A stretch of 34,414 nucleotides of DNA from Hansschlegelia zhihuaiae (GTDB lineage: Bacteria; Pseudomonadota; Alphaproteobacteria; Rhizobiales; Methylopilaceae): positions 110,542 to 144,955 of the forward strand of contig NZ_RYFI01000008.1 of the NCBI RefSeq assembly GCF_004103825.1, read 5' to 3'. Position numbers and translations under genes: made by a program. Below, piece after piece: positions 26,686-31,607 of this stretch; the stretch's first letter is position 1, and every line of letters begins with the position of its first letter. The notes beneath the pieces were generated by a model. That model ran no database searches, was not told where the DNA came from, and worked only from the letters and a program-made list of their open reading frames with translations.

Positions 26686-26792
26686 TTCGCGTCGTCTGAA
26701 AGCGCGGGCGAACCCCTCCAGGGGTGTGGGACGCCCATGCGGACGCGCGTATAGCCGAAAGGGCGAGGCGACGCAACGAGGGGCCTTTTCCG

Positions 26793-26816
26793 TACCCTTT
26801 GAAAGGGGAGGGAGAG
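26793..26816. repeat. CCCTTTGAAAGGGG-type palindromic repeat
   Basis: The palindromic core is ACCCTTTGAAAGGGGAGGG. Its reverse complement resembles the unit at 34371-34393 within midA (CTCCCTCCCCTT-x-CAAAGGG). A relative with CCTCCCTCACGGGGGAAGGTGAGG is at 27950-27973. The window thus holds several members of one short family. Confidence 0.5.
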
Positions 26817-26839
26817 AAGCCGCCGCGGCGATCCAATCC

Positions 26840-26946
26840 TCCACCGTCATGCCCGCCGAAGGCGGGTATCCACGACTTGGGCGTGGACAGCTACGACCTC
26901 AGAAAGTCGTGGATGCCCGCGCTGCCGCGCGGGCATGACGGGTGGA
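26840..26946. repeat. Large inverted repeat, GTCATGCCCG family
   Basis: The left arm 26840-26878 and right arm 26904-26946 are reverse complements with a few indels. Each arm begins TCCACC(C)GTCATGCCCG and ends CACGACTT at the inner side. The spacer is 25 nt. The same CGTCATGCCCG...CGGGCATCC arm design occurs at 31468-31545. It lies downstream of the minus-strand 145-residue gene and upstream of rplY. Confidence 0.8.
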
Positions 26947-26955
26947 GCAGCCCGC

Positions 26956-27393
26956 TTACTCCTCCATCTCCTCCGGCCCCATCTCCGCCGCCCGCGCCTT
27001 CACCAGCGCCAGCACCGGCTGCAGGCGCGCCTTGTGGTCGGCGAGGCAGACGCAGCCGCCGACGCCGCGGCAGCTTCGGGCGCGGCGGCAGGAGGCGACG
27101 AGGCAGACCTCCGCCATGAAGGCTGCGTCCGCGAGCTTCATCCGCACCGACAGCAGCTCCGGCCGCGGATCGGCCAGAAAGCTCCGCCGGTGGCGCCGGA
27201 GCGCCCGGCCGTCGACCACGGAGGCGGCGGGCCGCGCCGCGGCGGGCGGTTCGGGCCGGGTCACCTCCACCGGCTCCGGGACCTCGGCCGGCGCGGGCTC
27301 AGGCGCTGGCGGCCGGGGCGGACGCACGGCTTGAGCCTTCCGCACGGGCTCCCGCCGGAACAGCGGGACGAGACCGGTGGCGAACTCGATCAT
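26956..27393 (-). CDS. Hypothetical protein with a five-cysteine motif
   Basis: The 145-residue protein starts MIEFATGLVPLFRREP, then has a Pro/Glu/Ala-rich linker of about 50 residues. A C-terminal helical part follows with the spacing C-x4-C-x5-C-x5-C-x-C (from VCLVASC to GGCVC). The order suggests a metal site or a structural cysteine cluster. Similar short proteins with a conserved Cys/Arg motif are found in methylotrophic and related Hyphomicrobiales, but I do not know a function. The 3' end abuts the inverted repeat. The frame could start at 27393 or a little downstream. Confidence 0.65.
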   Translation of the reverse strand: MIEFATGLVPLFRREPVRKAQAVRPPRPPAPEPAPAEVPEPVEVTRPEPPAAARPAASVVDGRALRRHRRSFLADPRPELLSVRMKLADAAFMAEVCLVASCRRARSCRGVGGCVCLADHKARLQPVLALVKARAAEMGPEEMEE

Positions 27394-28236
27394 GGCGGCT
27401 CTCCTGATGGGGGTGGGGCGCGGAAGCGGAGCGCCGGTCCTCCGGACCCGAATCCGGGACGCGCCAAAACCGCTCGCCGCGGAAAACCCGCGCGAAGTTT
27501 TGGGGCATGCGGTCGGGAGGCGGGGACGCCGGGCGACCGTTCGAGCCGTAGCAGCGGCAAACCGGTCGCCCGGCGCCCCACGCGCGGCGATTTTGCGTCG
27601 GTCGCGGAAGCCGCTGCTCCGGCGGCGGAGACCCTTTGGATGCGGCCGCGAGGCCGGACCCGGTCGGGCCGGGAGCCTCGTGGTCCGCCGGCTCCCGGGC
27701 GCGTCGGGCGCGAGGCCCGGGACCCGAAGAGACAGCGGGACGAGGCCCGCTCCGCCGCCTTAGGGCGCCTCGATGGCGCGGCCCCGTCTTAGTGCGGGAC
27801 GGGCGGCATTTCTGGGGAGTCTGGCGTCGGGCCTTGCGGCCCTCGACCCGCCTTCCCCATCCGTGACAGACGTCCCGGGACGCGGACCGCCGGAGGCCCG
27901 CGGCGCAGGCGCCGCCCTAACCCCCGCGCGGTCGGCCGGTCCGGCCACGCCTCCCTCACGGGGGAAGGTGAGGGGAGAGTGGCATGGAGCGGGGCGGATG
28001 TCAAGAAAAAATTCCTATACCAGGCGAGGCTCGGGATTTTCTGGCGCGTCGCGCCCCTGTGGATGTTGGCACGCCGCTCGGAAACGGACAGTGAGTGCAG
28101 CTATCAGCTTCCGAAACGAATGCCATGATCCGCTTCGGCCTGGCAGGCCTTGATGCATTGCCCTTCATCAGAGCCGTGCCGTCGTTGTCGGATCCCTAGG
28201 CCTCATTTATACTCGTATCGAAAATCGGGCGACCCA
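27394..28236. other. Gene-poor, hairpin-rich GC-rich spacer ending in a composition shift
   Basis: No frame here has family-like sequence, and the several short open frames have shadow composition. The stretch 27440-27580 is packed with inverted repeats. Examples are CCAAAAC/GTTTTGG at 27464-27470 and 27497-27503, and an arm of about 17 bp at 27522-27539 pairing with 27563-27579 with one bulged base. At about 28000 the base composition drops from very GC-rich to mixed. A perfect palindrome GGCCT-GGC-AGGCC lies at 28137-28149 near the start of the HARE gene. No tRNA or integrase was found. Confidence 0.6.
27522..27579. repeat. Long stem-loop in a non-coding region
   Basis: The arms 27522-27539 and 27563-27579 (GGGG-A-CGCCGGGCGACCG against CGGTCGCCCGGCGCCCC) pair for 17 bp with a single bulged A and a 23-nt loop. 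It is much more stable than nearby hairpins. It lies about 130 nt upstream of the minus-strand 145-residue gene, so on that strand it would be a leader structure. No known RNA family is recognised. Confidence 0.6.
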
Positions 28237-29196
28237 GTGGATGCATACCTCGAAATCGCGAGAACTGTCCTAAGGTCCGAACGGCGGCCGCTGACGCCCC
28301 GCGCCATCCTGACCATTGCCTACAAGTCCGGCATCGTCTCTCACCAACTGCACGGGAAGACTCAGCACAAGACGCTCGGCGCTCGCCTCAGTGAGGACTT
28401 GGTGCAGCGGAACGACCGGAGCATGTTTTTTAGGCCGGAGCCGGGAAAATTTTTCCTGCGCGAGTTCCTGACGGACACTTCGCTGCCTGAGGAATATAGG
28501 CATCCTGTACCGACGCGCCGTCGCTTCCGGGACCTGGTCATGGGCGCGGCCCTGGCAGTGGACGACGACGCCCTTGCTCGGTTCGCCCGCGACAAGCCCA
28601 TCGATCCGAGAGCAATCCTCGACCTGCTCCAATCGGACAAATGCCGTTACGAGGACCCCCGTCATCGGTCGGGAAACAGCGTGTTCTTCCGCGCCTTCGT
28701 CTGCGTGCAGCGGGGTCCGCAGGTTCTGACATACCGTTTGGGGCGTTATCGTGAGGACCGCGACGCCTTCATGCACAAGCGGTGCATCGGGTTCGCTACA
28801 CTGGTTCACGACTTCGAGCACACCCTCTTCAACCAGGGCGATTTCGGCATCGTTGATTCTGGCGTCCACGCCACCAAGGTCGACCTCGACATACCGGACG
28901 TCGCGGAAGAGAACGCCGAGGCTGGGAAAGGTGGCAGCTTATCGCATTTCATCTGGGTATCGGAGCAAGGTGGCGGCGACTTGCTTGCCGTCATCTGCTA
29001 CGAATGTCCGACTTGGTTCGAGCCAACGAAAAGAAGATTGGCGTTAAACGACATCAGGTGGCTCGACGATCCTTCGTCCATTAACGACATGGATGATTTC
29101 GACCCTTGGTCGCAGCGGGTATTGCTGAGCGCCGTGGAGGGCCCGCTCTGCCGGGGGAGACGACGTGCGGAGGCAGACGAGGCTTATTCTAGATAG
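28237..29196 (+). CDS. HARE-HTH protein with a degenerate Nudix-like C-terminal domain
   Basis: The 319-residue protein (from GTG 28237) begins with a HARE-HTH winged-helix domain, roughly residues 3-75. EIARTVLRSERRPLTPRAIL is followed by HGKTQHKTLGARLSEDL and SMFFRPEPGKFFLREF. HARE-HTH (from HB1, ASXL1 and restriction endonucleases) links DNA or modification recognition to nucleases or effectors. The rest holds VFFRAFVCVQRG...LTYRLGRYREDRDAF, IGFATLVHDFEHTLF and FGIVDSGVHATKVDLDI. This layout recalls a Nudix-fold protein whose RExxEE residues are missing, so catalysis is doubtful. Upstream ATG 28153 would add a Cys-rich 28-residue stretch unlike the family, so the GTG is preferred although no clear ribosome site precedes either. 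It is followed and overlapped by the HEAT gene. Confidence 0.72.
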   Translation: MDAYLEIARTVLRSERRPLTPRAILTIAYKSGIVSHQLHGKTQHKTLGARLSEDLVQRNDRSMFFRPEPGKFFLREFLTDTSLPEEYRHPVPTRRRFRDLVMGAALAVDDDALARFARDKPIDPRAILDLLQSDKCRYEDPRHRSGNSVFFRAFVCVQRGPQVLTYRLGRYREDRDAFMHKRCIGFATLVHDFEHTLFNQGDFGIVDSGVHATKVDLDIPDVAEENAEAGKGGSLSHFIWVSEQGGGDLLAVICYECPTWFEPTKRRLALNDIRWLDDPSSINDMDDFDPWSQRVLLSAVEGPLCRGRRRAEADEAYSR

Positions 29197-30628
29197 GGTG
29201 GAGACCGAGTACATTCGGTCCCAGATCGATTCCGGCGACAATGTCCGCATCAAGGGCGCGCTCCAAGCCCTGAGCAAGTCGTACCGGCGCGGCGTGACGG
29301 TGCATCCCAACCAACTGATCGGCGTCGTCAATTCGGTCACCGCGACGGCCTTTCGCCCGACCATCGACGAGAAGGTTCGACGATGGGTTCTCAACGCGCT
29401 TGCCCGCGTCGGGAACGAGGGGACCTGCATCCCGGCCGTCCTCCATCTGATCAAGAACCACCCCCAAGAGCCGCAGACCATCGCGTCGGGAATCGCGGCG
29501 GTCTACAAGCTCTGCACCAGGTCCGATCCCGAGGCCGCCTTAGCCGGCATCAGCTTCGATCCGCAGATGCGGACGCTCGCCGCCCTTCAGCACGTTCCGG
29601 CGTCGAAGCTCAACCTCAAGGACCTGCCCCTCAACGTCGAACGCGCGACACCGGACCTACTCAAGCTGGCGCTGCTGGTCGTCGGCTTGGACCGGTCGCC
29701 CGACAACCTACTAAACCCTCGCCACAGCGACGCCGAGATGGTTAAGGCGCTCGGCCGGCATCATGATCCCATCGTTTCGCAGTACTCGGTCTGGGCGATC
29801 ACGGAGAACGACAAGCTCCGTCTCATCCATCTCGGCTTTGACCTGAAAGACATCGAGAGCCATCCTGACAACGTCCGAGGCTGGCTGTTCCAGTTGCTCG
29901 CCATCGAGGCCACCGACGCAGAGCCGCACTGGGAATTTGTGAGCCTCGGCATGGGGGATCCCGCGACGGAAGCCCGCAAGGGATTGGCCCTCGGGCTCCG
30001 GAACACGTTCATCGACGTCTTCGAGCCGCTGGTGATGGAGTGGGTAGCGAAGGAGCCCGATCCCGACGTCCGGCAGCACATAATGGACCACATCGTGCGC
30101 CAGGCCGCGCGCAGCCCAAAGTATGAGCGGTACGCCATCGACATCTTTGATGGCGAGCCGGCGGGATCGGTGCTGCGCCAGAGTATGGAAGCCAGCGCTG
30201 TCCAGACGCCAATCTACATCAAGTTTAGGCAAATCGGGGCCGGCGCCCCCGACCTTTTCGGAGGAGACATCGTCATGGGCGACAAGACCACCAACATCGG
30301 GAACGTTAACGCGGGCGCGGTGGCGTTCGACGGCTCCACCGCCACGAACCAAGGGGAGACGAAGATCCAGGTTCTCTCCCAGATGCAGGTCCAGCAGATT
30401 CAGTCAGAACTCGCGAAGCTGGAGGCCGCCCTACACGCGGCTACCGCGCTGCCGGAGGACAAGAAGCGCGAGGCATTGTCCTACGTGACGGCCGCGAAAG
30501 CCGATCCGTCGCCGTCCAATGTCGGAAAGGTCATCGAGTTCATCGGTCACCTTGGAACGCTCGCCGAGGCCGGCACCGCCCTAGCGCCCTATGCGGCCGC
30601 GCTCGGCAACGCTATTGGTCTCGGGTGA
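29165..30628 (+). CDS. HEAT-like helical repeat protein with linker and hydrophobic tail
   Basis: The 487-residue protein starts at GTG 29165, 32 nt inside the preceding gene, with a strong GGGGGAGA ribosome site about seven nt upstream. A second GTG at 29198 has a weaker site. Residues 20 to about 345 are alpha-helical repeats of HEAT/ARM type. Residues 372-397 form a Gly/Asn/Thr linker (GDKTTNIGNVNAGAVAFDGS). A short coiled-coil or amphipathic helix (about 398-430) follows, and the last 36 residues end in a Gly/Ala hydrophobic segment (GTALAPYAAALGNAIGLG). Linkers of this GD..NIGN type are seen in bacterial conflict proteins between sensor and effector parts. Function is not assigned. It probably works with the HARE protein, given coupled translation. 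Confidence 0.72.
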   Translation: MRRQTRLILDRVETEYIRSQIDSGDNVRIKGALQALSKSYRRGVTVHPNQLIGVVNSVTATAFRPTIDEKVRRWVLNALARVGNEGTCIPAVLHLIKNHPQEPQTIASGIAAVYKLCTRSDPEAALAGISFDPQMRTLAALQHVPASKLNLKDLPLNVERATPDLLKLALLVVGLDRSPDNLLNPRHSDAEMVKALGRHHDPIVSQYSVWAITENDKLRLIHLGFDLKDIESHPDNVRGWLFQLLAIEATDAEPHWEFVSLGMGDPATEARKGLALGLRNTFIDVFEPLVMEWVAKEPDPDVRQHIMDHIVRQAARSPKYERYAIDIFDGEPAGSVLRQSMEASAVQTPIYIKFRQIGAGAPDLFGGDIVMGDKTTNIGNVNAGAVAFDGSTATNQGETKIQVLSQMQVQQIQSELAKLEAALHAATALPEDKKREALSYVTAAKADPSPSNVGKVIEFIGHLGTLAEAGTALAPYAAALGNAIGLG

Positions 30629-31012
30629 AATCCACCGCTCCATCGAGCCGCCCCAGGCAACCGCGTCCTAGCGATGACGCGGTCGACGATGGAATAAGCG
30701 ACTGTATCCTACCCGGCTCCGGCCGCCGCCTTCTTCGACATTGCCGCACGCCGTCGCGGTAGCAGTAACCCTGCTCGCAGGTGGTGGTCTCCTCGTCCGT
30801 GAGGGTGCGGGCGTTGACCTGAAGGAACACGCCCTTGAGGCGCGGGGCGACGCGCTCGAAATCGAAAGAGCGCCGGCGTCGACCTTCGCGCCGGTCTCAT
30901 GCCGCTCGCTTCGGCGCCCGACGGAAATGTGCCCCCCTCTGTCGGCTCCCCGCCCTCCCGCTCGTCCTAAGCTCGGAACCGGCCGTTCGCGGCCCTTGAG
31001 AGGAGACCGACC
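30629..31012. other. Spacer with a possible gene remnant on the minus strand
   Basis: About 384 bp without a convincing gene. On the minus strand a frame through about 30735-30855 reads DFERVAPRLKGVFLQVNAR and then TLTDEETTTCEQGYCYRDG, which looks protein-like, but no start, ribosome site or family is apparent. It degrades to Arg-rich sequence downstream. It may be the end of a truncated gene at the right boundary of the accessory segment. The last 30 nt carry the GAGAGGAGA ribosome site of the YCII gene. Confidence 0.35.
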
Positions 31013-31435
31013 ATGCGCGTGATGGTGATCGTGAAGGCGACCGCGGAGAGCGAGGCGGGGGAGATGCCCTCGACCGAGCTGTTCGAGGCGATGGGCAAAT
31101 ATAACGAGCTGCTGGTCGACGCCGGGATCATGCAGGCGGGCGAGGGGCTGAAGCCGTCCTCGCAGGGCAAGCGCGTCGCTTTCGACGGCGCGTCGCGGAC
31201 CGTGATCGACGGACCCTTCACCGAGACCAAGGAGCTGATCGCCGGCTACTGGCTCTGGACCGTGAAGGACATGGACGAGGCGGTCGCCTGGGTGAAGCGC
31301 TGCCCGAACCCGATGCCCGGCCCGAGCGAGATCGAGATCCGCCCGATCTACGAGGAGGCGGATTTCGGCGAGACCTTCACCCCCGAGCTCGCCGAGCAGG
31401 AGCGGCGGTTGAGGGAGAAGATCGCCGGGCAGTGA
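31013..31435 (+). CDS. YCII-related (DGPF) domain protein
   Basis: The 140-residue protein is a ferredoxin-like YCII/DGPF domain. MRVMVIVKAT starts strand one, with LFEAMGKYNELLVDAGIM as helix one and GEGLKPSSQGKRVAF after it. The DGPF motif is in VIDGPFTETKELIAGYWLW. These proteins are small, often paired with ECF sigma factors of the SigI/SigJ-like type, and their activity is poorly defined. None is near here. An excellent GAGAGGAGA precedes the ATG. Confidence 0.92.
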   Translation: MRVMVIVKATAESEAGEMPSTELFEAMGKYNELLVDAGIMQAGEGLKPSSQGKRVAFDGASRTVIDGPFTETKELIAGYWLWTVKDMDEAVAWVKRCPNPMPGPSEIEIRPIYEEADFGETFTPELAEQERRLREKIAGQ

Positions 31436-31467
31436 GGGGCTTTTCCCGACCGGCGCTGCGCCGCCTT

Positions 31468-31545
31468 CGTCATCGCCGGGCTTGACCCGGCGATCCATCT
31501 CCTAAGCCAAGACGAGGGATGCCCGGGTCAAGCCCGGGCATGACG
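31468..31545. repeat. Large inverted repeat, GTCATGCCCG family
   Basis: The 29-nt arms at 31468-31496 and 31517-31545 match at 25 positions after reverse complement. Each arm is itself near-palindromic (CCGGGCTTGACCCGG). It shares the CGTCATGCCCGGGC / GCCCGGGCATGACG design with the repeat at 26840-26946. It separates the YCII gene and prs, which converge. Confidence 0.8.
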
Positions 31546-31607
31546 GGCGAGGCTAATGGGGACGCGCGCCTTCCTCCTCCCGCCGAGGGAGAGGTGGACC
31601 CGCCGCC

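Follow-up and report, generated by a model that had tools for sequence, protein, structure and literature searches.

A two-gene cassette of a HARE–Nudix protein and a HEAT-repeat protein with exchangeable C-terminal domains, probably an undescribed bacterial defense system

Introduction

Caspase-superfamily proteases and nucleoside phosphorylases serve as effector domains in conflict systems, according to excerpts of two reports (PMC8195603, PMC7159879). The same excerpts describe conflict systems of multicellular prokaryotes whose effectors are exchangeable, such as vWA-MoxR, EACC1-caspase and bDLD3 fusions (PMC7159879, PMC8195603). NLR and BELL-BASS proteins form two-gene amyloid signaling pairs, and the available part of the source also names CHAT as a BASS partner (PMC7889193); sequences of BASS-BELL peptides are given in a section of PMC8086366. 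HARE-HTH domains occur fused to restriction endonucleases (extracts of PMC10853773 and PMC12839542). Recognition of modified DNA has been proposed for HARE domains (extracts of PMC10853773 and PMC11037411), with reading of N6-methyladenine unproven and cytosine modification likelier in the extract of the latter (PMC11037411).

Here, we describe a pair of genes, designated A and B, in a 34,414-nt stretch of Hansschlegelia zhihuaiae DNA that was analyzed as a whole and is referred to as the window. As far as the excerpts go, the pair shares with the conflict systems of multicellular prokaryotes a modular layout and effectors of the caspase-type protease and phosphorylase kinds, and HEAT repeats occur in those systems too; it differs from them in that neither an NTPase nor an EAD was detected. 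Neither PMC7159879 nor PMC8195603 mentions HARE, and PMC7159879 names Nudix a single time, as a candidate effector domain. With the HARE-containing restriction enzymes, judged from the same extracts, the pair has in common a HARE-HTH domain in a putative conflict setting, but no nuclease is present, and the HARE domain is instead accompanied by a Nudix fold and a HEAT protein. Its likeness to the NLR and BELL-BASS pairs, within the sections available, lies in two adjacent or overlapping genes, a low-complexity motif next to a helical bundle, and CHAT as an alternative. Unlike them, it has no NLR or NTPase, the linker of B precedes the bundle and lies on the solenoid protein itself, the motif's Gln is missing from the window linker, and the window tail has no clear transmembrane helix. 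A further parallel is provided by NrtR-type regulators, which consist of a degenerate Nudix domain and a winged helix. Protein A likewise joins a dead Nudix domain to a winged helix, but the domain order is reversed, the winged helix is of the HARE type, and an effector protein is co-encoded.

Domain organization of A and B

Both genes, their parts and the promoter-like site are on the forward strand. Gene A (28237–29196, GTG start) codes for a 319-residue protein with a HARE winged helix and a Nudix fold. The sole promoter-like site that a motif scan found 5' of the gene (TTGTCG-17-TATACT, 28185–28213) is preceded by an alternative start, TTG at 28150. GTG at 28237 is likely the true start because homologs begin with MDxYL at the same point. 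We consider the promoter-like site weak, since one such motif was observed and 0.6 are expected by chance, as judged from shuffled sequences. The HARE-HTH domain (28249–28467) matched PF05066 with an E-value of 1.1e-10 (residues 34–106 when numbered from 28150) and 42.1 bits against a Pfam cut-off of 25.9, which places A in this family. Outside this domain, no family was matched in Pfam, PADLOC, NCBIfam or PHROGs. A structure model built with 14 homologs (pLDDT 83.4) was compared with PDB by Foldseek, and all seven chains with E <0.001 were Nudix, RppH, MutT or ADP-ribose pyrophosphatase structures, the best being 3e57_B (E 5.5e-6). By predicted fold, A belongs to the Nudix superfamily, with the Nudix-fold domain at approximately 28642–29136. 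A preliminary description made from the DNA letters had read the first protein as a HARE domain joined to a Nudix-like region and had proposed a check by structure prediction; both parts were recovered.

In an alignment of 32 proteins, the region equivalent to the Nudix box (28789–28893) has HATKVD in place of the catalytic REXXEE, so window A does not carry the signature of an active Nudix hydrolase. REXXEE was found in none of the 22 alignable A proteins that are paired with HEAT proteins (n=23, L012 being not alignable there). Among the nine A relatives without B, RELxEEL was kept in L007, L043, L044 and L047 and the box was partly altered in L042 and L045; L006 is cut in this region, and L018 and L046 are non-homologous there. 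It seems likely that a hydrolase turned into a binding domain upon gaining a HEAT partner, a direction of change that we infer. By analogy with NrtR, ligands of the dead Nudix domain could be nucleotides, NAD or ADP-ribose.

Gene B (29165–30628, GTG start) codes for 487 residues that comprise a HEAT solenoid, a linker and a helical tail. Its start codon follows a ribosome-binding sequence, GGGGGAG (29153–29159, direct reading), after five bases, and the gene overlaps A at 29165–29196; the 32-nt overlap behind a strong ribosome site, as first reported, is thus correct. The model of B (12 homologs, pLDDT 83.7) shows a helical solenoid in the N-terminal part, which is of the HEAT/ARM-like type and conserved with all partners (residues 11–359, 29195–30241). 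HEAT_2 scored marginally below the Pfam cut-off in window B (26.3 versus 27.7) and above it in two relatives, L003 (28.9) and L005 (32.4). The top Foldseek matches of the model were ARM/HEAT-type proteins with low query TM-scores (0.18–0.31 among the matches listed), so the likeness concerns the general solenoid type only. The predicted solenoid and the HEAT_2 scores of relatives identify B as a HEAT-repeat protein.

The solenoid is followed by a disordered, Gly/Asn-containing linker (30245–30370; pLDDT <50 at residues 361–402) and by a four-helix C-terminal tail in the model (residues 406–483, 30380–30613), in whose place relatives have CHAT or phosphorylase. The best 19-residue Kyte-Doolittle mean within the last 60 residues was 1.15 in the window, and the same measure ranged from 0.07 to 1.74 across the 12 tail-type B proteins. 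The tail is four moderately hydrophobic helices without a clear transmembrane helix. Therefore, the HEAT-like repeats and the Gly/Asn linker of the preliminary description stand, but its hydrophobic tail is only moderately so. Gln is absent at the core of the window linker. A Q-x-G-type pattern, picked post hoc from sight of the linkers, was present in 5 of the 12 tail-type linkers, a number reached in none of 2000 shuffles, and is missing from that of the window.

The closest homolog of B (L019:2443–4095) is encoded on a viral contig. It matches the window protein into the tail and then turns into unrelated Arg/Ser-rich sequence, as if frameshifted, which is either real or a sequencing error.

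A and B form one unit

Relatives of A were collected from genome contigs (7 loci), plasmids (8 records), viral contigs (7 loci) and whole-genome samples. A was detected in 2 of 18 genomes of the family, 3 of 385 of the class, 11 of 397 of the order and 4 of 398 of the phylum, in samples that overlap and each contain the window's own genome; the phylum sample also holds many genomes of the same order, and among its four matches the Nudix part was covered only in the window's own genome and G585. After deduplication, 32 A-like proteins remained, the window among them.

B adjoins A at 23 of these 32 loci (window counted). The pair therefore recurs at 22 further loci, one of which (L011) keeps only a B fragment beside an ISL3 transposase. 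The loci without B were varied. One ends at the contig edge (L006) and two have a different second gene (L007, L042); in two more, the protein runs on into a P-loop kinase-like part (L043, L044). The next protein looks membrane-type and has no Pfam match in L047, no same-strand ORF of more than 150 aa is close by in L045, and similarity is confined to the HARE part in L018 and L046.

A reverse search of the same 397 genomes with the HEAT part of B found six positive genomes, all of which had A, adjacent to B. On plasmids, B was present in seven records, all within the eight A-positive ones and all adjacent to A by coordinates, although four of the seven are Agrobacterium plasmids of ~220 kb with equal scores and are probably near-copies. 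The co-occurrence proposed earlier as a check was thus found, and the homologs are not always apart, the outcome that had been named as counterevidence. Distances between A proteins correlated with those between the HEAT parts of B (r 0.86, 22 pairs; none of 5000 permutations as high), and the correlation was 0.85 after removal of the aberrant L012. If the first possible start codon is assumed for each gene, 17 of 22 pairs have overlapping genes, and the other five have a spacing of 1–48 nt. Compared with L019, A differs at 92/77/193 first, second and third codon positions (311 codons; dS not computable) and B at 158/108/229 (437 codons; dN 0.39, dS 1.22). The 22 other loci and the predominance of third-position differences from L019 argue that the pair is more than chance. 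Comparative sequence analysis establishes A and B as one unit.

The C-terminus of B is exchangeable

The C-terminus is a linker with helices in 12 of the 23 B proteins, that of the window among them; eight end in CHAT and two in phosphorylase, and one lacks this part. Because types were called by motif, with HFSGHG standing for CHAT, the presence of this motif is built into the counts. A Cys motif, sought independently, was found in all eight CHAT-type proteins. Pfam confirmed the assignment in 4 of 4 proteins tested (phosphorylase in L003 and L005, CHAT in L009 and L021), and L010 is CHAT by record annotation.

In a phylogenetic tree of A with 28 rows (L006, L011, L018 and L046 omitted), the CHAT-type members form a single clade (100/99), which implies one switch to CHAT among the tree rows, and, with the exception of L012, all HEAT-paired rows (21) fall to the same side of one branch (95/98). 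The four labels require five changes, with a possible minimum of three, on a tree with 9 weak inner branches out of 25, poor resolution between phosphorylase and tail types, and an uncertain root. From sequence comparison, B is established as a constant HEAT part with an exchangeable C-terminal, putatively effector, domain. Searches of plasmids with two queries found no other fusions of the tail domain. The linker-tail form of B recalls, by analogy, the BASS-BELL pairs.

Genomic location and mobility

The composition drop near 28000 noted previously was observed as a GC fall from 0.767 (27001–28000) to 0.598 (28001–29000), but it is due in part to the exceptionally GC-rich 27–28 kb segment. 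The neighbors had been described as core genes. Indeed, pth, rplY, prs and pgeF are conserved across the family, but a gene with a YCII domain and a small ORF intervene between core genes and the pair. The prs-rplY interval of the window (26739–31607, ~4.9 kb) contains the cassette, the YCII-domain gene and the small ORF. In 10 of 17 relatives the gap is below 0.75 kb, too tight for the pair, and in G008, G009, G012 and G016 it is 5–7 kb with differing contents; G017 (prs beyond the retrieved stretch), G011 and G015 (contig ends) were unscored. By eye, the large gaps hold GGDEF/EAL proteins, M20-type peptidases, a phosphoesterase and an HNH-like gene. In this genus, the interval is a variable gene-insertion site. 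Its candidacy as a defense hotspot is not supported, as the gaps in relatives contain mostly non-defense genes. In G003, of the same family, the pair is elsewhere in the genome and the prs-rplY gap is ~0.1 kb. A housekeeping operon was rejected because A occurs in just 2 of 18 family genomes; a housekeeping context throughout had been named in the preliminary description as counterevidence.

The small ORF (26956–27393), beside rplY, is Cys/Arg-rich and by eye resembles L085:6422–6871 in G017; it had no significant Pfam match. Repeats flanking the cassette were short and imperfect only, the window had no match in Rfam, and no paralog was found in the window's own genome.

Several copies reside on mobile elements, and chromosomal copies of the pair exist too. 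A Leisingera plasmid (L010) carries the pair next to RepABC. In one phage-like contig (L022), a terminase lies ~1.2 kb upstream of A, and in another (L023) a portal match is located beside B, with an integrase and an anti-repressor also present. No structural phage gene was found among the ORFs scanned in the other five, putatively viral contigs (two in L020, one in L021, five in L024, one in L025 and none in L019). Among 50,697 phage records, none matched A, and a search of viral contigs with the HEAT part of window B found no relative. All hosts named to class are Alphaproteobacteria; that of L002 is named as Proteobacteria only. The cassette is rare, sporadic and apparently mobile, with copies on plasmids and at least two phage-like contigs.

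Defense neighborhood and database searches

Within 12 kb of one copy, on a Ti plasmid, are genes for TIR, caspase, CHAT and S8 peptidase proteins. PADLOC matched none of 10 chosen flanking proteins from six other loci. A broader flank sample comprised 135 ORFs at 17 loci, selected after removal of those above 900 aa; the 114 of them that were scanned gave scattered PADLOC hits of at most two members per family (among 25 of 33 families listed, without a control set), and 2 of the 114 had CHAT by Pfam. The suggested location in defense islands is therefore clear at the Ti-plasmid copy, but neither the PADLOC result for the chosen neighbors nor the window site supports it.

PADLOC-DB 2.0.0 (5027 models, a release of 2023) contained no family matching A or B at E-values up to 5. 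Pfam detected no STAND, NACHT, NB-ARC or other NTPase family in A or B, and no nuclease domain in A, B or the CHAT and phosphorylase variants tested. Judged by titles and the opening of abstracts, the open-licence papers listed by our searches contained no account of the pair, a later or closed-access one being possible. To this extent, the earlier statement that the pair had not been described agrees with our searches.

Proposed function and alternatives

The existence of the modular cassette is well supported, and a role in conflict is likely. We consider it reasonably probable that the pair is an abortive-infection-type two-gene conflict cassette in which A is the sensor and B the killer, a function that we infer. 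The HARE winged helix of A would bind DNA, perhaps modified or foreign, and the catalytically dead Nudix domain would offer a pocket for a nucleotide or a NAD/ADP-ribose-type ligand. Until a phage-derived signal frees B, its HEAT solenoid would be kept inactive by A; once freed, B would assemble and fire its effector. This effector would act by proteolysis in CHAT-type B proteins and by nucleoside or nucleotide breakdown in phosphorylase-type ones; in window B, the linker would make the helical tail assemble, with the membrane as the most likely target.

We counted in favor of the conflict reading the dead Nudix box, the effector exchange, the unity of the pair and the sporadic, mobile spread, as well as the TIR, caspase, CHAT and S8 peptidase setting of one copy. 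Counted against it were the silence of PADLOC on A, B and all 10 chosen neighbors, the window site, which is no proven defense island, together with the lack of matches in the phage records, and a tail that is not clearly membrane-seeking. Overall, judged from sequence data, the pair is probably an undescribed bacterial defense system. The candidate put forward in the preliminary description holds with regard to co-occurrence, non-housekeeping context, plasmid and phage-like homes and relatives with effector domains, but only partly with regard to defense islands.

A minority possibility is a toxin-antitoxin or maintenance module that would benefit the plasmid or prophage and not serve phage defense, with A as antitoxin and operon repressor and B as toxin. 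The overlapping two-gene order with a DNA-binding type of protein encoded first would fit such a module, as would the plasmid and prophage homes and the CcdAB genes near one plasmid copy. However, the proteins of usual type II toxin-antitoxin modules are far smaller than A and B, CHAT or phosphorylase behind a HEAT solenoid is more like a regulated immune effector than a constitutive toxin, and chromosomal copies of the pair occur.

We think it rather unlikely that the pair serves regulation or stress signaling with no link to invaders, A being an NrtR-type ligand-responsive transcription factor and B a downstream regulator. Although a winged helix with a catalytically dead Nudix domain is what such a factor would have, the sporadic spread, mobile homes and exchangeable CHAT or phosphorylase ends of the pair do not suit this role, and no recurrent metabolic neighbor was seen among the loci inspected. 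Modification-dependent restriction, in which A would bring a nuclease to modified DNA, is highly improbable: HARE-HTH has been proposed as a modified-DNA reader in nuclease fusions (extracts of PMC10853773 and PMC11037411), but no nuclease domain was found in A, B or the CHAT and phosphorylase variants tested.

A bolder reading, which we regard as doubtful, is a new class of NTPase-free bacterial immune receptor, in which a HARE-pseudoNudix protein would read invader DNA and a nucleotide-type ligand and pass the signal to a HEAT adaptor with a plug-in effector at its C-terminus. Here, the Gly/Asn linker of window B would nucleate an amyloid-like assembly that pushes the helical tail into the membrane, resulting in necroptosis-like death without an NLR. 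If the conflict reading is true, the cassette would give the known bacterial immune switches a further type of sensor, in which a HARE winged helix sits on a dead Nudix domain, and would represent three effector outcomes on one chassis, the effector being swappable and the sensor constant. Bacterial HARE domains would also gain a setting other than restriction in which the reading of modified DNA could be tested.

The Ti-plasmid stretch L009:1–24891 contains TIR, caspase, three CHAT proteins, S8 peptidases and HipA around the cassette, and is a possible protease-rich conflict island.

Relatives of A with other partners

Two A relatives, L043:9247–10920 and L044:8585–10273, are single proteins in which HARE and Nudix domains, the latter with an intact-looking box, are fused with a P-loop kinase-like domain (AAA_17 above the Pfam cut-off in L043, recognized by eye in L044). 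Every part of these proteins points to nucleotides. In two other loci, L007:7995–10831 and L042:335–3057, the product of the second gene has a phosphorylase domain, assigned by Pfam in L007 and by eye in L042, behind a further N-terminal region. The A-type sensor may cooperate with more than a single family of partners. Another relative, in L047:964–2819, has an intact Nudix box; the product of the next gene contains long hydrophobic stretches, is without a Pfam match and is possibly a membrane effector.
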